A stretch of DNA of 64,000 nucleotides from Pseudoalteromonas sp. R3 (GTDB lineage: Bacteria > Pseudomonadota > Gammaproteobacteria > Enterobacterales > Alteromonadaceae): positions 3,844,001 to 3,908,000 of the forward strand of contig NZ_CP034835.1 of assembly GCF_004014715.1 (NCBI RefSeq), read 5' to 3'. Under the pieces are notes generated by a model that had not been told where the DNA came from, searched no databases, and was given only the letters and a program-made list of their open reading frames with translations. Shown here piece after piece: positions 505 to 29,149 of the stretch (position 1 is its first letter; each line of letters begins with the position of its first letter). The position numbers and the translations under genes are program-made.

Positions 505-2768
505 AGGCTTCCCCTGGCAAATTTAAACGCACATGCCTGCTGGGCTTGTTTAACCAACTGAAATGCCTCTTTGAGTTGATGCCGCTCCAGAGAGCCCAAA
601 TGAGCTGGATTGATACAGTTTTCAGGTAAACCTTCTCGGTCAATCTGAGTGCGTAAACGCAGCTGAGTTAAAAATCGCCAACAGTCCTGTAAATTGGCAA
701 TGTCCTCGTCACTGAGTAGCTTGCGTCCTTTCAGGGCCTTTAATCGCTGTAATGTATTGGCTTTGCTGATCCCGGCTTGTAACGCGTAAAGACGAACAAT
801 ATCGTTAATGATCACAACACCGCGCTTTTTCAGATCCAAATATTTGTGCTTATGTTTGTCTTGTTGCAGCTTAAACTGATGAAATAAACCTATCGGCACA
901 GTATTCACATTGATATCTGCCGCCATTGCTGCATAAAACAATTCATTTTTCGGGCTCTCATTCAGATGATGTAAAAATTGCCCGAACAAAACATCAGATC
1001 CGGTTATAAAACGCAGATCAAAGTAGATTTTACAGTTCAACATGGCATGAGGGGTCGGTGCATGGATCCAGGTGGTGAACCGATCGCACCACTCACTGAT
1101 CGTGCCCCGGCAAGCCGGATTGCTCGCCATAATATTACCCGGGCAAGTGCGGATCCCACATTCATCCAGCTGCTGGCACACAAACGATCCGAGCTGCGAA
1201 AAATACGCTCTTTGCTCATCAGTTATCCCCTCAGGCAACAGCAGGCCATTATCCTGATCGGAATGCAGAGTTTGCTCTTCACGGGCCTGAGAGCCGAAAC
1301 AGATCCAGGCAAACGGGGTCGGAGCAGTACCATATTGCTGTTCGTATAAGTCGATTAAACGGCCAGTCAAAGCATCACTCAAGCCACTGAGCAGTTGCCC
1401 AATCAAAGAAATATCTTCGATCTTATTGGCAAATTCACTCAACAGATCCGGGATCTCCTTCGCCAACTGCTTCACTTCAGCATTGCTGCGCGCTTTATAG
1501 ATCCGCCCAATCAACTGTACCGGATCGCTTTTTTGCTGGCGTAAAAGATCGGTGCTGGTGATCATGCCCATAGGAGTACGATCTTCATTGAGTACGGGCA
1601 GATGATGAATATTGTGCTTCAGCATCAGGTGGAGTGCCGAAAAAATTCGATTATTCTCAAAAATATACTTGGGTTTGACCGTCATGATCTCACGAATAGC
1701 CAGGGCAGGATCCAGCCCTTCAGCCAACACCCGATTACGCAAATCACGGTCGGTCACAACCCCCGCGAGCTGCTTGTTCTGCGTCACCATAATCGAAGAA
1801 ACTCGGTGCTTTTTCATTACTTTGGCCGCATCCTGAATACTGGCCTGTGGCTCCAGCGTCACCGCAGCCCGGCTCATCAGCTCACTAACCGGGCGCTCCG
1901 ACCAGCTCGCCGTCGACTCTTTATAATGATTGGACAATAAGCGTTTGGCGTGGGCACGCACAAAATACTGCTCAAAAGGTTTGTACTCTCGGCGAAGAAA
2001 ATCAAACGCCATCTGAGGCAAGACATACACCAAGCCTGCCTGAACCACTTCCAGTTGATTGCTGATTGGCTCACCCGTTAACAGCGAAGGGTAGCCAAAA
2101 TAGTCCCCTTCGGCTAACCGGGTGATCAGTTCTCCGCTCTCGGAGCGCAGATCGAAATGACCAGAACGACGCAAATCACGGTCGGTCACAACCCCGCGAG
2201 CTGCTTGTTCTGCGTCACCATAATCGAAGAAACTCGGTGCTTTTTCATTACTTTGGCCGCATCCTGAATACTGGCCTGTGGCTCCAGCGTCACCGCAGCC
2301 CGGCTCATCAGCTCACTAACCGGCGCTCCGACCAGCTCGCCGTCGACTCTTTATAATGATTGGACAATAAGCGTTTGGCGTGGGCACGCACAAAATACTG
2401 CTCAAAAGGTTTGTACTCTCGGCGAAGAAAATCAAACGCCATCTGAGGCAAGACATACACCAAGCCTGCCTGAACCACTTCCAGTTGATTGCTGATTGGC
2501 TCACCCGTTAACAGCGAAGGGTAGCCAAAATAGTCCCCTTCGGCTAACCGGGTGATCAGTTCTCCGCTCTCGGAGCGCAGATCGAAATGACCAGAACGTA
2601 CCAGATACAGCTGAGGCAGATCGCTCTTGAACCACTGTGACTGATTCTGTGCGCTGACATAGATGATATCCAGATGTTCAATAAAGTACTCTGTGGCACT
2701 TTGAGCCAGCTGGCCAAATGCGCCTGTTGCTGCACAAAGGCCAGCACATCCTGTACATGAACCGTCAT
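501..2768 (-). pseudogene. cNMP-binding / CBS / DUF294 nucleotidyltransferase-like protein, disrupted by tandem duplication and frameshift
   Basis: In order the protein has a cyclic-nucleotide-binding-like domain (GDYFGYPSLLTGEP), two CBS repeats (SSIMVTQNKQLAGVVTDRD and HHLPVLNEDRTPMGMITSTD), a GlnD-like nucleotidyltransferase core (FGSQAREEQTLHSDQDNG, the GS...DxD pattern) and the DUF294 C-terminal region. The likely start is the ATG at 2768 behind GGAGG. The reading frame is lost near 2710-2735 and the gene holds a direct duplication (1737-2168 and 2169-2598). The open 562-codon stretch 501-2189 begins at a false start made by the duplication junction. Removing the second copy and restoring one base gives a clean 612-residue protein, a normal family length. 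Such proteins are thought to sense nucleotides in acetate-uptake loci; the reaction is not established. Damage may be an assembly artefact. Confidence 0.75.
1737..2598. repeat. Direct tandem duplication, 432 + 430 bp
   Basis: Bases 1737-2168 are repeated immediately at 2169-2598. By eye the copies differ only by two single-base deletions in the second copy: a five-C run reduced to four near 2190, and a three-G run reduced to two near 2321. The unit encodes the end of the cyclic-nucleotide-binding domain through the start of the first CBS repeat. The first copy is exactly 144 codons long, so an intact duplication would have been in frame. Both differences lie in homopolymers, which suggests read error or a mis-merged overlap. 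Confidence 0.9.
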
Positions 2769-2863
2769 AGCCCCTCCCAAAATGACAACTACTCCACAGC
2801 TTGCGCCATGAAGTAGTTGGTTTCTTTGCAATCAGATTGAATCGCAATCCGATAGAGTGAGTA

Positions 2864-4590
2864 TTAATGCGCGTGTGCTGCAGAAGACCCTTTAGGATTG
2901 CGGATCCCATCGACCATTTGCTTCACTTCAAGTGGCGTCTCAGCAGTCAGCTTCATCACAATGGCAGCAATACCAAAGTTTACTAACATACCAATAATAC
3001 CAATCCCCTCAGGCGAAATACCAAACAACCAGTTCGCCGGTGTTTCAGTTCCGGACTGACAAACTTAAAGTAGATAATGTAGGCCGCAGTGAACCCGATA
3101 CCACATACCATACCGCTGATGGCACCTTCTTTATTCATGCGTTTGGAGAAGATCCCCATGATGATCGCCGGGAAGAAGCTTGCCGCCGCCAGACCAAAGG
3201 CAAAGGCCACCACCGACGCCACGAATCCGGGCGGGTTAATACCAAAGTAAGCTGAGATTGCAATGGCCACCATCGCCGACAGACGCGCCGCCAGCAGCTC
3301 CTGTTTATCGCTGATATTCGGCTTGAGTGTCCGTTTGAGTTAAGTCATGGGAAACTGAGGTCGAGATAACCAGTAGCAAACCCGCGGTTGTCGACAGTGC
3401 CGCTGCGATACACCCGCTGCCACCAGTGCAATCACCCAGGCTGGTAAGTCGGCAATTTCCGGGTTCGCCAGTACCATGATATCACGGTCAATTTTCACTT
3501 CATTGCGGCTCGCCGGGTCATCAATTTTACCTGCTGAGTAGAACATTTTGCCGTCGCCATTCTTATCATTGAATACGATAAGGCCCGTTCTTTCCCAATT
3601 TTTCACCCACTGTGGCGCCTCGGCATAGGCCGTACCGCTGCCATCTTTACCATTAATGTGTATCAATCATATTCACACGGGCAAATGACGCAACTGCCGG
3701 TGCTGTGGTGTATACAATGGCGATGAACACCAGAGTCCAGGCCGCTGAAATACGGGTGTCTTTTACTCTGGGTACAGTAAAGAAACGCACGATAACGTGT
3801 GGCAGACCGGCAGTACCGACCATCAGCGCCGCAGTGATAGCAAACACGTCAATCACTCTTGGAGCCTTCGGTATATTGCGCAAAGCCGAGTTCGGTTACT
3901 GAGCCCGTCGAGTTTGTCCAGCAAGTAGGTTCCTGAGCCATCCGCCAGAGTACCACCAAAGCCGGTTTGCGGCAGTAAGTGACCTGTCATCATCAAAGAG
4001 ATAAAAGATAGCAGGCACTAAGTAGGCGAAAACCAGCACACAATATTGTGCAACCTGAGTGTAAGTAATGGCCTTTCATGCCACCCAACAGCGTAGAAGA
4101 ACACAATAACCATGCCGATATACACACCGGTTTCGATGTCGACTTCGAGAAAGCGAGAGAATACCACGCCCACACCACGCATTTGTCCGGCGATGTAAGT
4201 GAAACAGATAAAGATCGCACACAGAATAGCCACAACCCGTGCCACCTGCGAGTAGTATCGGTCGCCGATAAAATCGGGCACAGTAAATTTACCAAACTTA
4301 CGCAGATAAGGTGCCAGGCACAGTGCCAGCAACACGTAACCACCAGTCCAGCCCATCAGATACACACCGCCATCGTAACCGGCGAATGAGATGATCCCCG
4401 CCATGGAGATAAACGACGCAGCACTCATCCAGTCTGCGGCCGTTGCCATGCCGTTTGCCACAGGCGGTACACCGCCACCGGCCACATAGAATTCATTGGT
4501 TGAACCGGCACGGGCCCAGATGGCAATGCCGATGTAGAGGGCAAAACTGAGCCCAACAATTATAAAGGTGAGAGTTTGAACATCCATCAT
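2864..4590 (-). pseudogene. Sodium:solute symporter (SSS/SLC5 family, ActP-like), multiply frameshifted
   Basis: Membrane carrier predicted to couple Na+ to uptake of acetate or another small carboxylate. The start at 4590 follows AAGGAG. The first 170 residues are clean: an N-terminal membrane helix, the [20 protein letters not shown] segment typical of the family, and further helices. After that, recognisable symporter sequence continues to a TAA at 2864 but hops frames at least eight times (near 4078, 4063, 4003, 3893, 3655, 3400, 3350 and 3060). A change of one or two bases restores each. The density of events with preserved protein sequence between them argues for poor sequence quality more than true decay. 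It lies 35 bp after DUF4212 and upstream of the DUF294 gene. Confidence 0.8.
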
Positions 4591-4625
4591 AGCGCTCCTT
4601 ATTCATCCACCGCCGTATTTTTTGT

Positions 4626-4862
4626 TCAGCGCATCCATTTGAATACATAGACAAAAATCAAAGCAACGAAGGTATAAATTGCGCCCTGCTGCGAAAACCA
4701 AAAACCCAACTTAAATCCGAAGAACCGGACTTCGTTGAGTACATCAACCAGCAGAATGCCGCATCCAAAAGACACCACAAACCACACTACTAATAGCTTA
4801 AACATTAAGGCTAGATTCTCTGACCAATATGCTTTTGCTTGTTCTTCACTTTTAAAAGCCAT
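4626..4862 (-). CDS. DUF4212 small membrane protein, symporter partner
   Basis: A 78-residue protein with two hydrophobic segments (about residues 22-40 and 58-75), and charged ends, matching the DUF4212 family. These proteins are almost always encoded just before an SSS-family acetate/solute symporter and are thought to be its small subunit. The start at 4862 was chosen over an upstream in-frame ATG at 4937 because AGGGGA sits nine bases before it and homologues begin MAFK-like. The symporter gene begins 35 bp downstream. The gene itself is intact, unlike its neighbours. Confidence 0.85.
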   Translation of the reverse strand: MAFKSEEQAKAYWSENLALMFKLLVVWFVVSFGCGILLVDVLNEVRFFGFKLGFWFSQQGAIYTFVALIFVYVFKWMR

Positions 4863-4955
4863 GATAAGTCCCCTTTCACACACCTGTCGCCGATGTGCTG
4901 GTGTTAATGACCTTTGACTGTAGCAATGGCCCGTCAAGATGAAATTGAGACCTTA

Positions 4956-4986
4956 GTCGTAACGACGAGGTTACGTTTACGTAAAC
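4956..4986. promoter_or_regulatory. Dyad elements in the divergent DUF4212/crbS control region
   Basis: The 364-bp gap 4863-5226 separates the divergent symporter operon and kinase gene and must hold both promoters. It contains GTCGTAACGAC (4956-4966) and a perfect 12-bp palindrome GTTTACGTAAAC (4975-4986), 9 bp apart. A TATAAT-like box lies at 5040-5045, in kinase orientation, without a clear -35. These dyads are plausible regulator sites, perhaps for the response regulator partnered with the kinase; this is inference. Confidence 0.35.
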
Positions 4987-5226
4987 TGTTACACAAACTT
5001 TTCTCAAGAACCCTTAAACTCATTCAATTCAACAAGTTATATAATTAACACGGCGAACAAACCCACTAAAGGTACAGACATTTGAGAGATAAGACATTAG
5101 TCTAATTAACTCAATAAAAATCGAATAATTTTTTAAAATCAGGTGATTATGCCACTTTGGATTCTCTGCAAGTGATGCTACTTTAAGGCACAAAGACAAT
5201 AACAAGCATTAACACAAGGGCTCACT

Positions 5227-8200
5227 ATGACGGCTGCATTGATCCTCGTTGCCATCGCCTATATCGGCTTACTATTCTGGTTGGCTAACTGGGGAGATAA
5301 AACCACGCCGGTTGCAACACGGATCAGTCACCATCCTTTTGTCTATGCTTTAGCACTGGGTATTTATTGTACATCCTGGACCTATTATGGCTCAGTGGGA
5401 ACCGCCGCGACCAGCAGCTGGCACTATCTGCCCATTTTGCTTGGTCCAGCCCTGCTCTTTATGTTTGGTCAGGGCTTTTTACGCAAGCTGATCCTGGTCA
5501 GTAAAAAGCAGAACATCACCACTATCGCCGACTTCATTCAGCACGCTATGGTAAACGTCAGACCACAGCGGTTATGGTGACCATGATAGCTTTGCTGGCC
5601 ACCATTCCCTATATTGCACTGCAACTCAAAGCACTGAGCAGCAGCTTTTGTTGTTACAACAGGGCACCCCGATCTCAGGGGGCATGCTGGCCCTGACAGG
5701 GACTTTACTGATGGCACTATTTGCCATCTTTTTTGGTACCCGCAAAGTCGATGTGACCGAATACCGCTCCGGATTAATGCTCGCCGTCGCATTTGAATCC
5801 TTGATCAAATTACTGGCACTGATGGCCGTTGCCGTCATAGCCGTACAAGCCTTACTGTCACACAATAACGCCGATATGATGTTGTTTACACATTGGCAGG
5901 GGTTTGATTTTTTCAATTTCAACTTCATTGGCCAGACACTGATGGCAGCCGCCGCCATCGTCTGCCTGCCCCGACAATTCCATGTGACTGTGGTCGACAA
6001 TCAGGATAGTCGTCACCTGCGCACCGCGCGCTGGGCATTCCCACTGTACCTCATACTAATAGCAGCGATGATACTGCCAATCGCAAGCGCTGCCATTCAT
6101 CCAAGTATTGGTCAGGCCGTGGCCGCAGATAGCTTTGTCCTGGCACTGCCCATGATGCAGGGTCATCCGCTGCTCACCACCTTTGTGTTTATCGGGGGCT
6201 TATCCGCCGCCACAGCCATGATAGTGGTGGCAACACTCACACTCAGTACCATGTTATCTAATGATGTCGTACTGCCGCTGCTGCTAAAGCACAAGTTTAA
6301 AAAGAATCGCCTTACCAGCAACTATAAAACCCGTATCCTGCTGATCCGACGCTTTATCATTGCCGCTATTTTGGTTCTGGCGTTTCTCTATCAACAGTGG
6401 TTTGGCCATGGTGAAGCCCTCGCAAATATGGGTCTGGTGGCCTTTTCTCTGGTGACTCAGTTGCTTCCAGCCATTGTCGGCGGACTATACTGGCGCAAAG
6501 GCCATGCTTACGGCGTTTATGCTGGTCTGCTGGCGGGGTTTTTATGCTGGATGTTATTCCTGATGTTCCCTGTGATCGAAGCCGGTAGCAGCCTAGACTT
6601 TGAAACCCGTCAGACTATCATCACCCGCGGCACCTTACTGGCACTGCTGGCCAATATCAGCTGTTACATTAGCTTCTCGTTGGGGGCGTATGAACGCCTG
6701 ATAGATAAAATTCAGGCGGCCGCCTTTGTCAGTCCCTGGGAGCAGGCCAGTGCTGCCAAACGGCTCAACAAAGACGTCAAAGCGACGGTGTATGACTTTA
6801 CCGTGCTACTGCAAACCTTTTTAGGGATCCAGCGCAGTCAGCAGTTACTCAGCCACTACGCCATTAATCACGATATTGAAGACAGCAACGCCTATCCAAG
6901 CGCAGATTTCATTGCCTTTTGTGAGCGGGCACTCACGGGGGTTTTGGGTGCCTCTTCTGCACGCGCCCTGATACATGCCGTTTCCTCAGGTAAACAACTT
7001 GCCTTTGAAGAAGTGGTTAACTTTTTCGATGAAACCACCCAGGCATTGCAATTCAATCAAAACCTGCTTTTCACCTCACTGGAAAACCTCAGCCATGGCA
7101 TTTCGGTGGTGGACAAAGATCTCAACCTGGTTGCCTGGAACCGCCGTTATCATGAAATGTTTGAGTACCCGGATGGTTTTTTGCAAGTAGGCCAGAGCAT
7201 TGAGGAAGTGATCCGCTTTAACGCTGAGCGAGGTGAGTGTGGTCCGGGAGAACTTGAAAAACTGGTCGAAAAGCGCGTGCAGCATTTGAGAAATGGCACA
7301 TCGCACCACTTTATTCGACATCGCAGTAACGGCCAGGTATTCGAAATGACGGGTAACCCGCTGCCAGAAGGCGGCTTTGTCACCAGCTTTTCTGACATCA
7401 CCAGCCATATCGACACGCAGAACGCACTGGAAGAGATCAATATGGATCTCGAAAACCGCATTGAAGCAAGAACACAGGAAGTTCGTCTGATCAATCAGGA
7501 CCTCAAAGCCCAAATTGCCAGCCGGGAGGAAACGGAGCAAGCCCTGGTTGCGGCGAAAAAAGAGGCTGAACGCGCTAATGACAGTAAAACCCGCTTTCTT
7601 GCACTGGCCAGTCACGATATCTTGCAGCCGCTGAATGCCGCTCGCCTTTACCTGGCTGCGATTAATGAGGATAAGCTGGAAGGTAACGACCGCAGTAATC
7701 TGGAAAAGCTGGGTGCCAGCCTGGATTCGACTGTTCATCTGATGTCTGCGCTACTGGACATTGCCAAACTGGAACAGGGCGCAATGAAACCCACACCTCG
7801 CCATTTTGACATCGATGAGATCATGTCGCCCTTGGCCAGTGAATATGCCATTTTGTGTCAGGAAAAAGGTCTGGCGCTGCATGTTAGGACCAGCCATCAG
7901 GTGATCCACAGTGATATTACCTATCTGCGCCGTATCGTGCAGAATCTGGTGTCCAATGCCGTCAAATATACTGAGCAAGGTCGCGTCCTGCTGGCTTGTC
8001 GACGCCGCAGCCACAGTGTTCGCATTGAAGTCTGGGATACAGGCCCCGGTATCACAGAACACGAACAACAAAAAATATTCAACGACTTTTACCGCATTCA
8101 AAGTGGCGACAACAAAGGGGTCGGTCTGGGGCTGGGCGTTGTAAAACGACTGTGTGAACTCCTTAGCATGCCACTGGAAATACACTCCATCCCAGGCAAA

Positions 8201-8653
8201 GGCAGTCGCTTCAGTGTAGAGGTGCCACTGGGAGACCATCAGCAGCTCCAACAAAAAGCAGATAGTTTAGAGCAAAAGGCAACCAGTAAAGCACAGCTCA
8301 ATCTGGTGGTAGTGGATGACGACCCCAAGAACCTGGCTGCCATGGCCAGTTTGCTTGATAAGTGGCAGTTTAGTTATCAGATGTTTGAAAGGGCAAATAA
8401 AGCCCGGGAATATGCCGCAAGCAACCCCGCACCGGATTTTATCCTGATGGATTATCAGCTCGATAATGATGAAAATGGTGTCAGCCTGATCCAGGAGTTA
8501 AGACAGTGCTGGGATGCAAAGATCCCGGCCGTACTCATTACTGCGGTCCGAGATGACAGTTTAAAGCTACAAGCCAAGCAGGCACAGATCCACTACCTGA
8601 GTAAACCGCTAAAACCTGCTAAGCTCAAGGCGCTACTTAGCCACAGCAGTTAA
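5227..8653 (+). CDS. CrbS-like hybrid histidine kinase with SLC5 transporter domain (two apparent one-base deletions)
   Basis: Membrane sensor kinase: an N-terminal Na+/solute-symporter-type region with about a dozen helices, a linker, a PAS domain (NLSHGISVVDKDLNLVAWNR), a dimerisation domain with phospho-His in ASHDILQPLNAARL, an ATPase domain (GVGLGLGVVKRL), and a C-terminal receiver domain (LVVVDDDPKN, phospho-Asp in ILMDYQLD, Lys in LSKPLKP). This matches CrbS, which with CrbR controls acetyl-CoA synthetase and the acetate switch in Vibrio. The divergent symporter operon supports this role. The frame breaks near 5549 (QHAMV for an expected QHRYGKRQ) and near 5647 (a run of T). Adding one base at each gives a continuous 1142-residue protein. 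No CrbR-type regulator lies in the window. Sequencing error is the likelier cause. Confidence 0.8.
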
Positions 8654-9696
8654 TAGGCGAGCTGGATCTGATCACGGCCATTAGCCTTAGCGCGATATAC
8701 AGCCTGATCAGCCATTTTTAGGGCATGACTAAATGGCATACTGGGATTCACCTCAGCGACCCCAAAGCTGGCCGTAACGTGGATCAGCATGTTTTCCTGG
8801 CGCACCTCCATATCCCGCACGGCTGTGCATAACCGGTTGGCCACCATATGTGCATCGCTGACCGAGGTTTCTGGTAGCAGGACCACAAACTCTTCGCCCC
8901 CTAAGCGACAAAAACAGTCTTCCACGCGCACCACGTCCAGGCAACACTGGGCAAACTTCTGCAGCACTTTATCACCGGCATCATGGCCAAAGTCGTCGTT
9001 GATGCGTTTAAATCTGTCCAGGTCCATCATGATCAAGCTCATCGGCCGCTCCGTGCGCTGATGACGGCTCATCTCACGCTTAGCATGCTCCATCAGGAAA
9101 CGGCGGTTGTTCAGGCCCGTCAGCATGTCCTGAAACGCCATTTTGGTGAGCTTTTGCTGCATCCGATATAACTCATGTACTAACAAACGACGGCTACAGC
9201 AATCAGCAACCATTTCCGTGATTGTCACTTCCCACTCCTGCCACTGGCGAACATCAGCAAGCCCTTCACAGCACACCACTCCCAGTGCAATGCCATTTTT
9301 AAAAATGGCCGTATCCAGCATAGTCGCAATGTTGTGAGGCTTAAGGTAGATATCGGTAAATTCGCAGGTACGAGGATCTGTGCAGGCATCCTCCGCAGCA
9401 ATGGACTGGCCGCTGATAATGGTTGCAAAGTAAGTAGGGAAATCTTCAATCGTCAACACTGGCAACTGCTGCGGCACCGCCTGCCAGTCAGTATTGGCGT
9501 AGTTAAGTAACTTGGTCGGCTGATGCATGTCGTCAAACAGCCACACCGACACACGATCGACCTGAAGCAAGGATTTTGCCTCAAAAATGATATCTCGCAA
9601 GAAGCTCTGATGTTCGCCGGAAACATCGACCTCTTGCGAGCTGATCCGCCGCAGTTTTTGCGTGCTCTGAGTTAATCGGTTCAAAGGTACTACCAA
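8650..9696 (-). CDS. GAF-domain diguanylate cyclase
   Basis: A 348-residue soluble protein predicted to make cyclic di-GMP from two GTP. Residues about 25-165 resemble a GAF sensor domain (LLQVDRVSVWLFDD), followed by a short helical linker and a GGDEF domain with DMLTGLNNRRFL, DLDRFKRINDDFGHDAGD and an intact active site RLGGEEF. An RVED inhibitory-site motif lies five residues before GGEEF, so product inhibition is expected. No membrane segment is seen. The stop overlaps the 3' end of the convergent kinase gene by four bases. The ATG at 9696 is the first in-frame start. The signal sensed by the GAF domain is unknown. Confidence 0.88.
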   Translation of the reverse strand: MVVPLNRLTQSTQKLRRISSQEVDVSGEHQSFLRDIIFEAKSLLQVDRVSVWLFDDMHQPTKLLNYANTDWQAVPQQLPVLTIEDFPTYFATIISGQSIAAEDACTDPRTCEFTDIYLKPHNIATMLDTAIFKNGIALGVVCCEGLADVRQWQEWEVTITEMVADCCSRRLLVHELYRMQQKLTKMAFQDMLTGLNNRRFLMEHAKREMSRHQRTERPMSLIMMDLDRFKRINDDFGHDAGDKVLQKFAQCCLDVVRVEDCFCRLGGEEFVVLLPETSVSDAHMVANRLCTAVRDMEVRQENMLIHVTASFGVAEVNPSMPFSHALKMADQAVYRAKANGRDQIQLAY

Positions 9697-20999: not shown

Positions 21000-21995
21000 T
21001 CAATACTTATATTCTCTGGGTAACTGAGAAAACCCATCTACTGAGTAAATCTCATCAAACGTCAGCTTGCCTACTTTTCCATTTACCGCCTCTCCGTACC
21101 AACCAAATTTAAAATGGTGCTTAAACCTGTACGTAAATGGAGGATAAGCACTGGGGTTGTTGAGCGGTAGCCCAACAGTATTAACTTCATGAGAAAAAGT
21201 CTCAATATAATTGAAGTGACCTATAGGTGTATCAAACCCAAATGCCTGCCAGGAGCCACCAACAGGTTTTACGGCCGCTGCGAAGCGCCCGGTAGCGAAC
21301 GTATCCGCATCATAAGGGGTCTGCCCTCGCTTTATCAAAAGAGGTGTGTCTTCTACAGTGTAAACTCTCACGCGATACCACACATCCTCAACAACTGATA
21401 TTTTATCGGAAGAGTACCACTTTCTTTCTTCACCATGACCGATACATAATTGTTCGCCCAAGCTATTTTGAAATTGCTCGGCCAGATTGATTCCGTTGTA
21501 GGGGTAATTGCACTTCATTGCGACACTAAACCTTAAAAACAGTTTATTGCCAGCTTCTTTGTTCAAAGTAATGTGAGCCTTTTTACCCGAAGCGAGGCCT
21601 GAACCGTTTGTCCAATACTGCATCATAATTGCATATTGACCGACAGCATCTGTTGTACCTTTACCTATTTTAAAACTGAATGCATCCCATCTAACGGAGC
21701 CCTCATTCATTGTGGGGCGAACTGATGCCAACTCTACTCTATTTTTGTGATTGCCAGCGGGGTTTGATGAAGAACAGGGATCGTTCTTACCTATGTTGCC
21801 ATATCGGCTGATTTCAACTCCGTTACCAACTAGTCCATTGGACGTGATTTTTGCGGTTCCACTACATACACTTCCTAAATCGTATCCAATATTCAAGCTT
21901 TGATTAAACTGCCCATTGACCTGATAATCTGCAGCCAATAACACATTGGTAAAAAGTGTTAAATTGGCTATTGCAGCATAGAGTATTGTTTTCAT
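21000..21995 (-). CDS. Secreted polysaccharide-lyase-like protein (heparin lyase I-like)
   Basis: A 331-residue exported protein. The first 21 residues (MKTILYAAIANLTLFTNVLL then A) form a Sec signal peptide. The body fits the jelly-roll polysaccharide lyase group (Polysacc_lyase, heparin lyase I-like): RVELASVRP, RWDAFSFKIG, GQYAIMMQYW and WYRVRVYT follow that pattern. It has several cysteines but no lipobox. It would cleave an acidic polysaccharide outside the cell; the substrate cannot be told. The ATG at 21995 has AAGGAAAATT before it and starts the signal peptide; the longer frame back to 22115 has none. It is the first gene of the accessory block and lies next to a broken XRE gene copy. 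Confidence 0.6.
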   Translation of the reverse strand: MKTILYAAIANLTLFTNVLLAADYQVNGQFNQSLNIGYDLGSVCSGTAKITSNGLVGNGVEISRYGNIGKNDPCSSSNPAGNHKNRVELASVRPTMNEGSVRWDAFSFKIGKGTTDAVGQYAIMMQYWTNGSGLASGKKAHITLNKEAGNKLFLRFSVAMKCNYPYNGINLAEQFQNSLGEQLCIGHGEERKWYSSDKISVVEDVWYRVRVYTVEDTPLLIKRGQTPYDADTFATGRFAAAVKPVGGSWQAFGFDTPIGHFNYIETFSHEVNTVGLPLNNPSAYPPFTYRFKHHFKFGWYGEAVNGKVGKLTFDEIYSVDGFSQLPREYKY

Positions 21996-22029
21996 AATTT
22001 TCCTTAAAATTGATATTACATTGTAGAAA

Positions 22030-22048
22030 ATATCAGAGACCCTGATAT
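22030..22048. promoter_or_regulatory. Dyad operator candidate upstream of the lyase-like gene
   Basis: ATATCAG-AGACC-CTGATAT is a perfect 7-bp inverted repeat with a 5-bp centre, 35-53 bases before the lyase ATG. A TACAAT box follows on the minus strand, so the dyad would cover the -35 area. Typical of a repressor site; the regulator is unknown. Confidence 0.4.
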
Positions 22049-22118
22049 CGAGAGGGAATGTCCAGTAATGCTTTAGATATGAAGCCACTCGTACCAAAGA
22101 GTAGCCGAAATGCATAAG

Positions 22119-22199: not shown

Positions 22200-22317
22200 G
22201 CATCTCCCTATTTATTCCTGCAGCTAACCTAGCAGGCAAAACCGCCAAAAGCAACATTTTGGAAACAAAATTAACACCAAAATAAACCCTTTATGAATAC
22301 TTTGATAAGCCCATTCG
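22122..22317. repeat. Imperfect direct repeat, copy A (XRE 5' end plus promoter)
   Basis: About 195 bp shared with 27581-27790 in the same orientation. It covers the first 26 codons of the XRE gene and roughly 115 bp upstream, including ACATTTTGGAAACA-like and TTTATGAATACTTT blocks. Identity is high in the coding part and falls with small indels upstream. From 22318 to 22513 no gene is seen; a hairpin CACGCCA-gtt-TGGCGTG lies at 22401-22417. Confidence 0.8.
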
Positions 22318-24743: not shown

Positions 24744-25499
24744 TTACAGCTGAGTGACCACATCCCGGCGCCTGGCCTGTTTATACATAAAGTGGAAAAA
24801 CAGCGAACTCAGCATAAATAAAATGACACTGGGCAGGCTTGCGAGCACTATCTGGCTTGCTTCGACAGGCATGCCACTGGCCAAAGGTCTGAGTAAATAC
24901 ATAGATCCACTGACAGGGATATAAAGGCTTAGCTCACTTTCTATTGGCACCAAAAACACCATGAGCAGGAGCAACTGAACAAAAGCTACAAAGGTACTCA
25001 TCTGCTTATTTACCAGGGCGATGGCGCCTAACAGGTAAGACACCGCAAACCCAGCAACGACTACCTGCAAAAAGACCAGCAGCATCAACGGATGAAAGCG
25101 CACTGGCAGGTCAAAATACCAATTGATAAATACAAACCCAACACCCACAACCAGCAACTGATACAGCACCAGCACCACTTTGCGTGCCAGCAATACACCA
25201 AATAAGGTTGTCGCTGACGTTAAAATATGTGGCAGCGTGCCTAGCTTGGCGTCCTCAACAATCTCTTCAGCGGCGGTAGATGAAATACCAACCGTCAGTG
25301 TCCACAGGTAATACCCCAATACCAAAGATTCCATCCGCTGCAATGATAATGCCCCGCCAGACAGATAAGAGGCGCCCGAAATAACCAGGATGAGAATGAC
25401 AGCAGCAAAGACAATACTGGCATAAAAGTTCAGCGGGTATCGCTTTGAAGTCACCCACTTTCGATGGAGCTCCAGCCCGAGTAAAGTCATAAAATTCAT
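24744..25499 (-). CDS. ABC-2 type permease of the peptide cassette
   Basis: A 251-residue inner-membrane protein with about six helices (near residues 25-45, 60-80, 105-130, 145-170, 178-197 and 222-243) and a cytoplasmic basic tail ending in YKQARRRDVVTQL. It resembles ABC-2 permeases that export drugs or give self-immunity to bacteriocins. It has no peptidase domain. Its ATG overlaps the ATPase stop (ATGA-type, four bases), so the two form one transporter. With a small double-glycine-leader peptide gene upstream, a role in peptide export or producer immunity is inferred. Confidence 0.75.
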   Translation of the reverse strand: MNFMTLLGLELHRKWVTSKRYPLNFYASIVFAAVILILVISGASYLSGGALSLQRMESLVLGYYLWTLTVGISSTAAEEIVEDAKLGTLPHILTSATTLFGVLLARKVVLVLYQLLVVGVGFVFINWYFDLPVRFHPLMLLVFLQVVVAGFAVSYLLGAIALVNKQMSTFVAFVQLLLLMVFLVPIESELSLYIPVSGSMYLLRPLASGMPVEASQIVLASLPSVILFMLSSLFFHFMYKQARRRDVVTQL

Positions 25500-26368
25500 A
25501 ATAAGTTTAACTCCCTGCGGATCAACCCTTCCAGACTGGCCTGATGTCTTTCAACGGTGACAATGTTAAATCGCGTGAGCAATGTCAGCATATCATTAAG
25601 ACTGCTCACAGCGGTGTCAAACCTGAGTGACTGCTCAGACAATCGCTCACACTGCATAGGGAGCACCTCAGGAAGCGTATGCTGCGTTGTAATGGTGTAC
25701 TGCTCACCGCTAGTGCTAGCCAGTAAGGTTTGTGTTTTGCCAAAGCGTACCACTTCCCCTTTATTAAGCAGCAATGAATAATTACCGAGTCGCTGCGCCG
25801 TATCCATCTGGTGTGTCGCTATCAGGACAATAGTGCCTGTCTCTTTGACTTGTTCAATACATGCTTCAAACTCTTTCTGACTCTCAATATCCAGCCCTAA
25901 CGTGGGCTCATCAAGCAACAAAACTTTAGGGCTGGAGATCAGGGAAAGGCACAATGCGAGGCGCTGTTGCATACCTCTGGATAGCAGTTGCACCTGCTGC
26001 CGGGCTTTGTCTGATAAGTTAAACTTCAAAAGAAGTTGCTGCGCTGTGTCTTTTGCAACCCGCCGTGATAACCCTTTTAAAACGCCAAAGTAGCGAAGGT
26101 TTTCAAATGCCGTCAATTTGGGGTAAAACGCCCTGGAGGAGTCAAATACAAACCCGATATCATGCGCCTGCAACTTTTTGTCCGGGCCAAAACAGATGCT
26201 GCCATGATAGTCGTGAGATAAGCCGGCTAGTATTTTAAACAACGTGGTTTTGCCAGCGCCATTGGGGCCTAAAATGGTTAATACCGTGCCCGGCTCTACG
26301 GAAAAAGAAACCTGCTTAAGCGCGCAATGACTGTCGAAATGTTTAGATAAGTTGGTGATAGTTAGCAT
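25496..26368 (-). CDS. ABC transporter ATPase of the peptide cassette
   Basis: A 290-residue ATPase: Walker A GPNGAGKTT, Q-loop region GFVFDSSRAFYPKLTA, signature LSRGMQQRLALCLSL (Arg replaces the first Gly of LSGG), Walker B VLLLDEPTLGLD and switch His in ATHQMDTAQ. A C-terminal domain of about 75 residues follows. The ATG at 26368 has no good ribosome site and lies inside the end of a small upstream open frame (26343-26498), so coupled translation is possible. It sits 160 bp after the terminator of the peptide gene and is probably read by leak-through or a separate promoter. Confidence 0.82.
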   Translation of the reverse strand: MLTITNLSKHFDSHCALKQVSFSVEPGTVLTILGPNGAGKTTLFKILAGLSHDYHGSICFGPDKKLQAHDIGFVFDSSRAFYPKLTAFENLRYFGVLKGLSRRVAKDTAQQLLLKFNLSDKARQQVQLLSRGMQQRLALCLSLISSPKVLLLDEPTLGLDIESQKEFEACIEQVKETGTIVLIATHQMDTAQRLGNYSLLLNKGEVVRFGKTQTLLASTSGEQYTITTQHTLPEVLPMQCERLSEQSLRFDTAVSSLNDMLTLLTRFNIVTVERHQASLEGLIRRELNLL

Positions 26369-26498
26369 ACTTGATGCGTCCCAGCGGATGACTTCGAAAC
26401 CAGCCTAACCAGTCTTGATAACTCGCTGTAATAATTCCCAGTGTAAAGCATAAAAACTGATAAAACAGGATATTAGCTGATTGTCCAGCGCTATTCAC
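26343..26498 (-). CDS. Possible 51-residue membrane peptide upstream of the ABC ATPase
   Basis: A GTG at 26498 opens 51 codons, with a hydrophobic stretch ILFYQFLCFTLGIITAS and a Trp-rich part DWLGWFRSHP, ending at a TAA inside the ATPase gene (26-base overlap). A stop lies two codons before the GTG and no ribosome site is visible. The composition looks protein-like and the overlap would explain the weak start of the ATPase, but an open frame of this length can arise by chance. Confidence 0.3.
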   Translation of the reverse strand: MNSAGQSANILFYQFLCFTLGIITASYQDWLGWFRSHPLGRIKYANYHQLI

Positions 26499-26530
26499 GG
26501 GCTAAAGCAAGATTATGTATATCTTCATAA

Positions 26531-26553
26531 AAAAAGCGCTGAACGCGCTTTTT
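26531..26553 (-). terminator. Terminator directly after the small peptide gene
   Basis: Perfect nine-base stem AAAAAGCGC / GCGCTTTTT with a five-base loop, and further A/T runs on both sides. It lies 21 bases after the peptide stop on the minus strand. It would separate abundant peptide mRNA from lower expression of the ABC genes. Confidence 0.85.
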
Positions 26554-26574
26554 GTTTTAGCAATTAAGCTGGCT

Positions 26575-26706
26575 TTAGCCGCCACAGCTCTTTTTCGGAG
26601 CTGGCTGAGCTACCTGGACTCTGTCTGGCAAATCAGGACTACCAACTCCTGAGCCATACACTTTTTTCAGGCTTTCGATTTGTAATTGCTTCATACTTTC
26701 TGACAT
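26575..26706 (-). CDS. Small peptide with double-glycine-type leader (bacteriocin/RiPP/signal precursor candidate)
   Basis: A 43-codon gene. From Met5 the leader reads MKQLQIESLKKVYGS, which fits the double-glycine export leader: hydrophobic at -12 (Leu), -7 (Leu) and -4 (Val), Gly at -2 and Ser at -1. The predicted mature peptide of 24 residues starts GVGSPD, has a PAPKK segment and ends SCGG with its only cysteine. GGAGG directly precedes the first ATG (26706) and is 12 bases from the second (26694), so the start is uncertain. A strong terminator follows, then an ABC transporter; a membrane protein and XRE regulator precede it. This layout is typical of secreted or modified peptides. No modifying enzyme is adjacent, except perhaps the methyltransferase at 27974. 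Function is inferred. Confidence 0.6.
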   Translation of the reverse strand: MSESMKQLQIESLKKVYGSGVGSPDLPDRVQVAQPAPKKSCGG

Positions 26707-26818
26707 CCTCCATTTGTCGTTATTTAGATGGATTGCTTACCCTCTGCATAATGACATCGATTACAATCATAAATGTTATGCTCCAAAGATATCGCCTAAC
26801 TTTTTAGTAACTAGCTAA

Positions 26819-27355
26819 CTAATAAGCCTTTTCACGCTCTACAAATTCCTCTCTGGAATTTGCCGTCATTGAGTACGCAAACAAAGCAAAACTAATCATT
26901 AAATGAAACAGCAACATCAGATTATCTCGCACATAAAGCTTGAACGGCGCTGAATCGAGTATGTAGTATTTGTAAGCTAAAACCTCAAACCACGTTATAA
27001 CATTTACCACACAAGTTAAGCCGAGAAGCAATATAATCCCACATTCCTGTGCTGATAACGTCTGCAGTTTGTAAACTCGCTTGAAATAACGACTACCAGA
27101 CAGAGCATATAACCTCAAAGCAAGGCTACGTCTGAATATGATCGGCAGAAGGAACATAGCATTGATCATTACATCAGCAATGTAATAGTGTGTATTCCAT
27201 TGCATAGTGATTGGCAAAGTGGCGACATCAAGCACTTCAAAGAAACCGTAAGCTAATAAAAACCAACGGGCTGTGGCGACTTTCCAACTCACGACTAACC
27301 CAAGCAAAATAGCTACAAGTGGGGCATATTCCATGATGGCGTATACTTCTTTCAT
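26819..27355 (-). CDS. Multipass membrane protein of the peptide cassette
   Basis: A 178-residue protein with about five hydrophobic segments (near residues 8-26, 29-45, 56-75, 103-127 and 143-163) and a short charged tail (SREEFVEREKAY). I do not recognise the family. Its ATG lies three bases after the XRE gene stop, and AAGGAG, its ribosome site, is inside the end of that gene, so the two are co-translated. The small peptide gene follows after 112 bp. By position it could be an immunity protein, a peptide sensor or a membrane protease-like factor; none of these is shown by sequence. Confidence 0.65.
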   Translation of the reverse strand: MKEVYAIMEYAPLVAILLGLVVSWKVATARWFLLAYGFFEVLDVATLPITMQWNTHYYIADVMINAMFLLPIIFRRSLALRLYALSGSRYFKRVYKLQTLSAQECGIILLLGLTCVVNVITWFEVLAYKYYILDSAPFKLYVRDNLMLLFHLMISFALFAYSMTANSREEFVEREKAY

Positions 27356-27358
27356 AAC

Positions 27359-27658
27359 CTACTCCTTTTCTGGTTTTTCGTCGGGTGAAGGACTTTGTTC
27401 TTCAAGGTCGGTTAAGTTCAGTACACCAGTCAGGTCTTTACCAAAAACCAGAAATAGCTCGAACATCTGGGCATAACTCATATCTGTTTTGCCGGATTCG
27501 TAGTTGCTTATGGTGGCCTGATCGACACCAAGCCGCCTGGCCAGCTCTTGCTGAGACCAGCCTCTGTGATGTCTTAACTGGCGGATTGAGCGCTGTACAT
27601 AGCGCCTGAAATTCTCCACTTTGTAATTGCGCTTGTCAGGACTGTTCTTCACGCGCAT
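27359..27658 (-). CDS. XRE-family transcriptional regulator
   Basis: A 99-residue DNA-binding protein. A basic N-terminal part is followed by a Cro/C1-type helix-turn-helix at residues about 27-80 (RGWSQQELARRLGVDQATIS, then NYESGKTDM). The acidic tail is SPSPDEKPEKE. The ATG at 27658 has GGGAG four to five bases upstream. It heads a probable operon with the membrane protein. Its first 26 codons and about 115 bp of upstream DNA are repeated at 22122-22317. It likely controls its own cassette. Confidence 0.85.
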   Translation of the reverse strand: MRVKNSPDKRNYKVENFRRYVQRSIRQLRHHRGWSQQELARRLGVDQATISNYESGKTDMSYAQMFELFLVFGKDLTGVLNLTDLEEQSPSPDEKPEKE

Positions 27659-27790
27659 GCATCTCCCTATTTATTATTGTCGCTAAACTAGCAAGCAAAA
27701 TTACAAAACGCAACATTTTGGAAACACAATTAACACCCAACCTGCTCTTTATGAATACTTTTATGATCTTAATCAGCTCATTCAACGAAT
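27581..27790. repeat. Imperfect direct repeat, copy B
   Basis: Partner of 22122-22317. This copy holds the start of the intact XRE gene and its upstream region, and is presumably the parent. The rest of the 315-bp gap 27659-27973 is AT-rich and holds a candidate MerR-type promoter (27880-27910). Confidence 0.8.
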
Positions 27791-27973: not shown

Positions 27974-29149
27974 GTGGTGTATCGGATTTCTGAATTGGCT
28001 GCGCAGCTTGGATTGTCGCGCTCGACTTTGTTGTATTACGAAACGCGCGGACTGCTCTGTGGCCGTCGCGCCAGTAATGGCTATCGGCTATATGGCGAAC
28101 AGGATCTGCAAAAGGTGCGGCTGCTGCAACAGTTACAGGCTGGCGGGCTAACGCTGAGTGAATGTAAACAGGCGCTGGAGGCCAAACTAGACCGTACGGT
28201 ACTGAGCCGCAGGCTCGCCGAGCTGGAAGCCGAGATAGCACACAAGCAACAGGCGCATGCCTTGTTGTCAGCGCTGCTTGGGCGTGGATCGCTACGCGAC
28301 TGGCATGCACAGGCCGATAAGCTGGCACCCGATGCACACCGACACTGGCTTGAACAACAAGGGTTTGATGAACAGCAGGCCCTGTACTTAAAATGGTTAT
28401 CAAAAGACATGAACGAACACGATTCTTATATGGCCGACTTTATGGCGGTCTTTCATCAGTTAGAACGCTGGGGACCGGGCAGCAATACCGATACGCATAA
28501 AGCGTTGACCTATGTTCCCTTTGCTCCTCAAACCGTGCTGGACATCGGCTGTGGTAAAGGCTTTGCGACTGAGTTGCTGGCAGCACAAACTCAGGCACAA
28601 ATCACGGCGGTAGATAATGAGACGCAGGCAATCGATAGTCTGGCGCAGCGACTAAAACAACAGGGACTCGATAAGCGCGTCACGCCCCTGTGCGCCAGTA
28701 TGACCGCACTGCCCTTTGCGCCCGGCAGTTTTGATCTGCTGTGGGCCGAAAGCTCGGCTTATATCATGGGCTTTGAAGCGGCACTGAATGCCTGGCGCCC
28801 GCTTCTGATCCCGGCCGGTTGCCTGATGGTCAGTGATCTGGTGTGGTTACAGGATACGCCCTCAGAACAAGCAAGTGCCTTCTGGCAACAGGAATATCCG
28901 GATATGCAGGCCGTTGCAGCGCGTCTGGTGCAAATTGAGCAGGCAGGCTTTCGGGTGTTAGCGCACTTTACACTGAGTCATCAAGCCTGGGCAGACTATT
29001 ATGAACCGCTCAAAACCGAAGTCAAAAAGCAGCTCAGCCACCAGCCTGAGTCAGCAGCACTGCTGGATATGGCCCGCGAAATTGCCATCTATGAGCAGTA
29101 TCTTGGCGAGTTTGGCTATCAGATGTTTGTGCTGCAACGCACGGATTAA
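27974..29149 (+). CDS. MerR-family regulator fused to a SAM-dependent methyltransferase
   Basis: A 391-residue two-domain protein. Residues 1-75 are a MerR winged helix (ISELAAQLGLSRSTLLYYET, then NGYRLYGEQDLQ), followed by a coiled-coil dimerisation helix to about 125. Residues about 175-330 are a class I methyltransferase: motif I VLDIGCGKGFATELLA, ITAVDNE, and FDLLWAESSAYIMGFEAALN. MerR proteins normally end in an effector domain, so the methyltransferase part may be enzyme and ligand sensor at once. The GTG at 27974 has AGGGAG upstream. It ends 110 bp before gmk and lies next to the peptide cassette in divergent orientation. Substrate is unknown. Confidence 0.85.
   Translation: MVYRISELAAQLGLSRSTLLYYETRGLLCGRRASNGYRLYGEQDLQKVRLLQQLQAGGLTLSECKQALEAKLDRTVLSRRLAELEAEIAHKQQAHALLSALLGRGSLRDWHAQADKLAPDAHRHWLEQQGFDEQQALYLKWLSKDMNEHDSYMADFMAVFHQLERWGPGSNTDTHKALTYVPFAPQTVLDIGCGKGFATELLAAQTQAQITAVDNETQAIDSLAQRLKQQGLDKRVTPLCASMTALPFAPGSFDLLWAESSAYIMGFEAALNAWRPLLIPAGCLMVSDLVWLQDTPSEQASAFWQQEYPDMQAVAARLVQIEQAGFRVLAHFTLSHQAWADYYEPLKTEVKKQLSHQPESAALLDMAREIAIYEQYLGEFGYQMFVLQRTD

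Follow-up and report, generated by a model that had tools for sequence, protein, structure and literature searches.

A recurrent XRE regulator, membrane protein and double-glycine peptide module in Pseudoalteromonas as a candidate peptide-pheromone circuit

In the LytTR systems HdrRM and BrsRM of Streptococcus mutans, each regulator is inhibited by the membrane protein whose gene directly follows its own. The five LytTR operons of this species are, in the account of PMC6193735, autoregulated via direct repeats upstream, in some cases linked to ABC transporter genes, and involved in bacteriocin control. Here we describe a comparable arrangement in a stretch of 64,000 nucleotides from Pseudoalteromonas sp. 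R3 (contig NZ_CP034835.1, positions 3,844,001 to 3,908,000 of the forward strand), referred to below as the window and numbered from its first letter. Judged by gene order and sequence comparison, the core module consists of genes for an XRE-family regulator, a membrane protein (TM) and a double-glycine (GG) leader peptide, and the window holds one copy of a large family. There is, in our assessment, about an even chance that this module is a peptide-pheromone circuit. In common with the LytTR systems, the regulator gene lies directly upstream of a gene for a transmembrane protein (86 of the 119 TM open reading frames (ORFs) analysed here), multiple copies exist, ABC genes are found near some of them, and repeats that may serve autoregulation lie upstream of the operon. 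Conversely, the regulator is of the HTH_3/XRE type, palindromes stand out over direct repeats, TM has no known family, and the module contains a peptide gene that is swapped with TM. The LytTR systems are the nearest architectural parallel, of which the module is not a member because the regulator family differs.

With respect to the peptide, GG pheromones of the ComC/CSP and EntF induction factor type show the same leader (Leu at -12, Leu at -7, Val or Ile at -4, GG), a short core and polymorphic types; pherotypes are known for pneumococcal CSP (PMC5629823). In contrast to these pheromones, the host is Gram-negative, the exporter is encoded outside the locus, only some members give weak matches at the level of the leader, and the adjacent gene encodes no histidine kinase but TM, which has no Pfam, NCBIfam or PADLOC match. 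Class II microcins have longer cores. They share with the module a GG leader, an adjacent small membrane protein, variability of peptide and partner, and the presence of C39 peptidase and HlyD-type genes in the genome, whereas the cores described here are short (median 26.5 aa) and hydrophilic, the pump lies outside the locus, and the regulator gene is tied to TM. According to PMC9746304, class II microcin immunity proteins tend to reside in the inner membrane and to be encoded close to the microcin gene. The rtg locus of pneumococcus, finally, is described as combining GG peptides with a peptidase-containing ABC transporter under the regulator Rgg (PMC7018657). GG peptides go with a regulator in both cases, but the rtg transporter is part of its locus whereas the C39 genes that could serve the module are found elsewhere. 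A further link is the XRE-type helix-turn-helix (HTH) domain of Rgg, which is joined to a peptide-sensing domain of its own; the XRE protein of the module has no such domain. A published description of an XRE-TM-GG-peptide system was not found among the matches listed, most subscription journals being outside the scope of the search. To our knowledge, partners have been identified for only a small number of GG peptides secreted by Gram-negative bacteria.

In the window, the XRE, TM, peptide, ABC ATPase and permease genes follow one another on the minus strand, in agreement with the five same-direction genes of the first-pass annotation. The XRE-family regulator (27359-27658, 99 aa; Pfam HTH_3, E 2.3e-13) is separated by 3 bp from TM (26819-27355, 178 aa), a putative peptide receptor and regulator of XRE or, alternatively, an immunity protein. 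The peptide gene (26575-26694) encodes 39 aa, composed of a 15-aa leader, MKQLQIESLKKVYGS, and a 24-aa core, GVGSPDLPDRVQVAQPAPKKSCGG.

The family was surveyed in 108 Pseudoalteromonas genomes, among them that of the window (G000). A search with the window peptide gave matches, often weak, in 30 genomes at E <= 1, and a second module is present in the window's own genome (L002). A TM profile matched in 33 genomes, with up to nine matches in one genome and seven in G000. The 119 TM ORFs were taken from 98 searched stretches with their flanks, window included, a count in which split genes figure twice (L093, L103) and related strains contribute nearly identical alleles. An XRE gene was scored as a neighbour within 250 bp upstream of TM, and an ORF with a strict GG-leader pattern when it started within 700 bp downstream. 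Such GG-leader ORFs follow 77 of the 119 TM ORFs, compared to 1-5 in ten dinucleotide-shuffle runs and 8 on the antisense strand, and a peptide profile scored above 7 in 82 sense but only 7 antisense regions. With pattern and profile combined, a peptide is found beside 75 of the 86 TM ORFs that have XRE and beside 10 of the 33 that do not. The end of the TM gene overlaps the start of the first peptide ORF in 37 of the 77 modules. Behind each of six TM ORFs the pattern matched three or four ORFs, of which one was judged spurious. Two ORFs (L082, 2559-2795; L089, 1596-1865) hold two GG leaders and two cores, as if peptide genes had fused.

Among 394 genomes from the order (a set that includes a few genus members, with eight candidates scored per genome), a TM match was obtained in G000 itself and in none of the 393 others. 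A TM profile search of proteins returned 21 entries, of which the 20 with source names are all "hypothetical protein" of Pseudoalteromonas. For the peptides, a search of 5.8 billion proteins at limited sensitivity yielded 17 relatives at E <= 5; the 13 named ones all belong to Pseudoalteromonas, 12 as "hypothetical protein" and one (P0037) as "bacteriocin".

The leader of the window peptide has Leu at -12 and -7, Val at -4 and Gly-Ser at the cut, followed by 24 residues ending in SCGG. The first-pass annotation recognised these features in a 43-residue version with an earlier start (26575-26706, minus strand), of which the length is the part to be revised. The Shine-Dalgarno sequence GGAGG abuts the first ATG (MSES...), the second (MKQL...) follows 12 nt after it, and the sole database match, an entry that carries no source annotation, is the 39-aa form; on account of this spacing and match, 39 residues is probably the correct length. 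A hairpin of nine pairs with a U-rich 3' arm at 26531-26553 (minus strand) is a possible terminator of the peptide transcript. It folds at -17.9 kcal/mol compared to -12.06 for shuffled sequences (z -2.25; 3 of 200 shuffles equally good). The nine-base stem annotated as the gene's own terminator is thereby confirmed as a hairpin but was not flagged as a terminator by the rule of a consensus scanner, because the U run is mostly paired within the stem.

Comparison between strains indicates that the peptide gene is under purifying selection. The ratio of non-synonymous to synonymous divergence (dN/dS) was 0-0.27 in six of seven strain comparisons (those with unsaturated dS); G052 differs from G000 by 7 synonymous and 4 non-synonymous changes, G094 by 2 and 0. 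A frame broken in relatives, named beforehand as evidence against a peptide gene, was not seen, the frame being open in all eight strains with the peptide at this chromosomal site (window included). These data bear on the proposal that the small ORF is a regulatory leader or a chance ORF instead of a peptide gene. It is short, has a hairpin next to it, and its one close database match lacks source annotation; still, the selection on its codons, the PxLP motif common to the cores of the family and the 77 of 119 downstream ORFs against 1-5 in shuffles leave this proposal most improbable, and the shuffle comparison rules out a chance ORF.

Across 103 unique peptide ORFs, G occupies -1 in 84, L -7 in 84, V or I -4 in 96 and K -14 in 68, figures to be read in light of a search pattern that itself required hydrophobic residues at those positions and G at -2. 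Core statistics refer to 98 of these ORFs, five having been dropped as spurious by eye. The medians for the cores are 26.5 aa in length, -0.95 in grand average of hydropathy, +1 in charge and 0.29 in Pro+Gly fraction. PxLP occurs in 59 of the 98, in 55 of these at core positions 5-9, whereas shuffled cores gave a mean of 3.5 and a maximum of 9. Among 38 members, models of the EntF induction factor and ComC type gave weak matches to some leaders (NF033383 to six, best E 0.0014; NF033214 to one; PF03047 to two, best E 0.0026), and TIGR01847 matched three, likewise weakly. Cys is absent from 86 of the 98 cores, which makes a lanthipeptide a poor fit for the family even though a LanB/LanC and C39 cluster exists elsewhere in G000. 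The window core is one of the 12 that contain Cys (one residue), and for this core alone a ring may be possible.

TM has no match in Pfam, NCBIfam or PADLOC. Its AlphaFold2 model is all helical (pLDDT 92.4, pTM 0.85), and from hydropathy and charge we infer five membrane helices and a basic cytoplasmic loop at about residues 75-104. Fold searches returned no informative structural relative, which does not imply a novel fold. Residues W24, R30, R75, Q103, E104 and E124 are invariant in 22 sequences. Helices 3 and 5 (33-42% identity to the window in G053, G093 and G007) and the C-terminal tail (25-50%) are the most divergent parts, whereas the cytoplasmic loop is less divergent (63-87% in the same strains). 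Covariation of the three genes was addressed by a Mantel test on 65 modules with XRE present, a peptide within 250 bp and a unique TM. With XRE corrected for, the peptide core still follows TM (partial r 0.375, p 0.001); with TM corrected for, it hardly follows XRE (partial r 0.052, p 0.063), with the reservation that the rows are related and linked, which makes these p values rough and detracts from the argument for a sensed peptide.

The chromosomal site of the window offers a closer view. The module is kept there in seven strains (G000, G094, G052, G053, G093, G007 and G051). XRE is 97-99% identical to that of the window in the six other strains, whereas identity of TM declines from 99% (G094) and 91% (G052) to 67% (G053), 66% (G093), 59% (G007) and 51% (G051), and that of the peptide, in BLAST alignments, from 100 and 84 to 66, 63, 49 and 50% in the same order; over 39 codons, the G052 peptide is 90% identical to that of the window. 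In G053, G093 and G051, which have swapped alleles and the ABC genes, identity in 100-bp bins drops to 46-85% over TM and peptide, returns to 83-99% in the bin beyond the peptide, and is mostly 82-99% thereafter except for one intergenic bin of 61-67%. For the near relative G053, dS to G000 is 0.16 in GMK, 0.12 in XRE and 0.23 in the ATPase, while TM is saturated and the peptide reaches 0.82, whereas the more distant G052 (GMK dS 1.01) has the window's allele type. These comparisons indicate that TM and peptide are exchanged together, as swapped alleles, between strains at a conserved site. Because the core tracks TM and the alleles of both are swapped together, TM is likely the partner of the peptide, as a receptor or an immunity protein.

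Swapped pairs and arrays are typical of toxin-immunity loci. A bacteriocin-immunity module, in which the core would be a narrow-spectrum antibacterial to which TM confers cognate immunity, with XRE as autoregulator and the ABC pair as an accessory pump for self-protection, is consistent with the swapped TM-peptide pairs and the TM arrays observed here, with the source name of P0037 and the TIGR01847 matches, and with the NCBIfam model that fits the ABC ATPase best, drrA, at a score below its cut-off. Moreover, 178 aa falls within the 51-216 aa range that PMC9746304 gives for confirmed class II microcin immunity proteins, and TM suits such a protein in its location as well. We regard this explanation as possible but on the unlikely side, given that the cores are short, hydrophilic and near neutral, that peptides accompany TM ORFs with XRE far more often than those without, and that four different peptides can lie next to one TM (L100, L129). 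Moreover, strain G106 retains the peptide at the site without XRE, TM or ABC genes there, which would be unexpected if TM were the immunity protein of a toxin.

If, instead, the XRE-TM pair were a switch for envelope stress and blind to the peptide, the GG peptide could be secreted for another task related to biofilm, to surfaces or to interaction with a host. In Synechococcus, biofilm formation involves small secreted proteins with a GG motif, as reported in PMC4997328, and XRE-TM pairs without a recognised peptide exist. Still, it is specifically TM that the core follows, and at the site the strains differ in TM and peptide jointly, so that such a role appears improbable.

The XRE protein of the window comprises a DNA-binding domain and a short tail; no sensor domain was found with Pfam. 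A palindromic operator-like site, TTATGAATACTTTTATGA, lies at 27749-27766, 108 bp upstream of the XRE start, with a position weight matrix score of 17.5. Upstream regions were compared for the 61 of the 86 XRE modules in which a start codon could be assigned by pattern. A TTATGAAnAnnTTCATAA-like palindrome scores above 7 in 59 of the 61, compared to 0-5 in shuffles, although the training set of this matrix consisted of the very regions scored, a circularity that counts against the operator. In 39 modules the site lies at -101 to -122 and in 17 at -165 to -175. An out-of-sample matrix, built only from the two site versions of window-type alleles, matched 43 of 54 other modules and 17 of 240 upstream regions of other genes. 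Direct repeats of at least 7 bases are present in 35 of the 61 regions (about 12.6 in shuffles) and perfect inverted repeats of at least 7 in 32 (about 11.8), where one type of repeat may create the other. A regulon beyond the XRE promoters was considered and rejected: a loose pattern has 35 sites in G000 and 16 for a reversed control, and of 15 sites inspected nine lie inside ORFs and two are XRE promoters. Two weaker sites of the window are not claimed as operators. One is a palindrome at 22291-22308 (score 13.6) that may be a chance occurrence; a 371-aa ORF lacking any Pfam match (21000-22115, minus strand) begins about 175 bp downstream of it. The other is at 26513, in a stretch also present in strains without the ABC genes.

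The pheromone circuit would operate as follows. A C39 exporter encoded elsewhere would cut after GS or GG and export the 24-residue core, and the polymorphic TM, as its inner-membrane partner, would sense it. TM would hold or release the sensor-less XRE, which would act on the palindrome and set the expression of its own operon including the peptide, each allele forming a self-specific loop. We favour this circuit because XRE has no sensor domain and occurs together with TM where the peptide is present, because the core follows TM and the alleles are polymorphic as in pherotype loci, and because G106 keeps a peptide without TM. The short, hydrophilic and near-neutral cores, together with the weak resemblance of some members' leaders to the EntF and ComC models, were counted in its favour as well, as were the overlap of peptide ORFs with TM genes, the palindrome upstream of XRE and the strong C39 matches in every genome with TM. 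Several observations weigh against it. A recognised peptide is missing from 11 of the 86 XRE-TM pairs, and the window's own peptide has no Pfam or NCBIfam match, including the EntF, ComC and TIGR01847 models. The C-terminal cytoplasmic tail of TM, a candidate contact to XRE, is also variable (25-50% identity in three alleles). The palindrome matrix also matches 10 of 70 regions upstream of peptides, and the out-of-sample matrix 14 of 100 AT-rich controls (a subset of the 240), while the XRE upstream regions are more A+T-rich (0.69) than controls (0.58). Five other TM matches in G106 could protect that strain, TM arrays of up to four ORFs per stretch (L111, L155) equally fit bacteriocin and immunity, and polymorphism of TM and peptide fits a bacteriocin-immunity module as well. 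The evidence is compatible with both the pheromone circuit and bacteriocin-immunity. In L111, L155 and L132, where three or four TM ORFs come with one or no recognised peptide, the arrays are possibly spare immunity proteins or receptors.

A tentative proposal, with somewhat less than an even chance, is that the module represents a new form of peptide signalling in Gram-negative bacteria. In circuits that are present in many copies and swap alleles, a small helical TM receptor would directly control an XRE protein consisting of a DNA-binding domain alone, upon sensing a self-specific GG peptide with an SPxLPxR-like core, and strains would thereby have private signal types open to horizontal exchange. 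A pheromone would imply a simple two-protein switch from membrane to DNA with polymorphic peptide signalling in a Gram-negative genus; a bacteriocin would imply a set of unusually short, Pro/Gly-rich and mostly Cys-free peptides. In either case, culturable marine bacteria supply about 100 natural variants of the peptide, with candidate partners encoded next to them, and signal or toxin specificity can be tested through allele swaps at one chromosomal site.

As the first-pass annotation had pointed out, the locus contains neither a C39 peptidase, in Pfam and NCBIfam scans of the window proteins, nor an adjacent known peptide-modification enzyme. The missing pump may be accounted for by C39 exporters that the genome encodes outside the locus. 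G000 has three C39 matches, none in the module locus and all with the expected Cys, His and Asp, each adjoined by an HlyD-family gene. By Pfam, two of them, of 714 and 736 aa, are full-length ABC exporters; the third, which may be a broken gene, is open over only 603 aa. One of the C39 genes adjoins LanB/LanC genes, another a series of GG-leader ORFs, and the 603-aa one a radical-SAM gene. Among the 108 genomes, a strong C39 match (best E <= 2e-30) is present in 33 of 33 with TM and 32 of 75 others, an association that is confounded by phylogeny and inflated by relatedness, and to that extent speaks less for the circuit. The surroundings of these genes may be noted in their own right. L079 (G000:C2:4414000-4433000) contains a cluster of the lanthipeptide type at 1502-9475, in which genes for a lantibiotic dehydratase (PF04738/PF14028) and a LanC-like protein lie beside those for a C39 exporter and an HlyD-family protein. 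L080 (G000:C2:4445000-4464000) holds at 4208-5661 eleven head-to-tail, near-identical GG-leader ORFs of 36-37 aa with 134-bp spacing, surrounded by about ten further candidate GG-leader ORFs, with C39 exporter and HlyD-family genes beside them. The 603-aa C39 gene, at the end of L080 and in L081 (G000:C2:4464001-4474000, 1-2944), has its ATPase end seemingly in another frame and lies next to an HlyD-family and a radical-SAM gene.

The ABC ATPase (25496-26368, minus strand; ABC_tran, E 1.5e-29; drrA 180 bits, cut-off 312) and permease (24744-25499, minus strand; no Pfam or NCBIfam family) are accessory genes found at this one chromosomal site and stand outside the core module. Permease matches occur in 8 of the 108 genomes, the close ones (93-100%) in five, all at the window's site. 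The ABC pair is absent beside the module in G094, G052 and G007, apart from a 26-codon ATPase match left in G007, whereas G054 has the pair but lacks XRE (after codon 23), TM and peptide. This independent presence and absence rules out the pair as an essential partner. The secreted-peptide system proposed initially therefore stands as a GG-leader peptide beside XRE and TM genes, without a description found, but not with the ABC transporter as a defining part. Its reading as an abundant precursor that a terminator separates from a low pump cannot be kept in that form because the pair is accessory and C39 exporter genes lie elsewhere in the genome.

A defence system was considered as well. TM, peptide and permease have no PADLOC match, and the matches of XRE to HTH models (best E 7.2e-8) and of the ATPase to ATPase models (best mad3, E 5.6e-27) are read as shared domains, the comparison covering the proteins of the locus.

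A second GG-peptide arrangement was observed in L018, L025, L028 and L031, where a methyl-accepting chemotaxis gene (confirmed as MCPsignal in L028) is combined with a peptide, MQKLNLKECKKVSGGG..., and a membrane protein of 206-209 aa. Kinship of TM with this 206-aa family was not established by hhalign (probability 9.7, E 0.0033). The divergent neighbour of the module in the window (27974-29149) encodes a MerR HTH fused to a methyltransferase domain and is retained in G054 despite deletion of the module.

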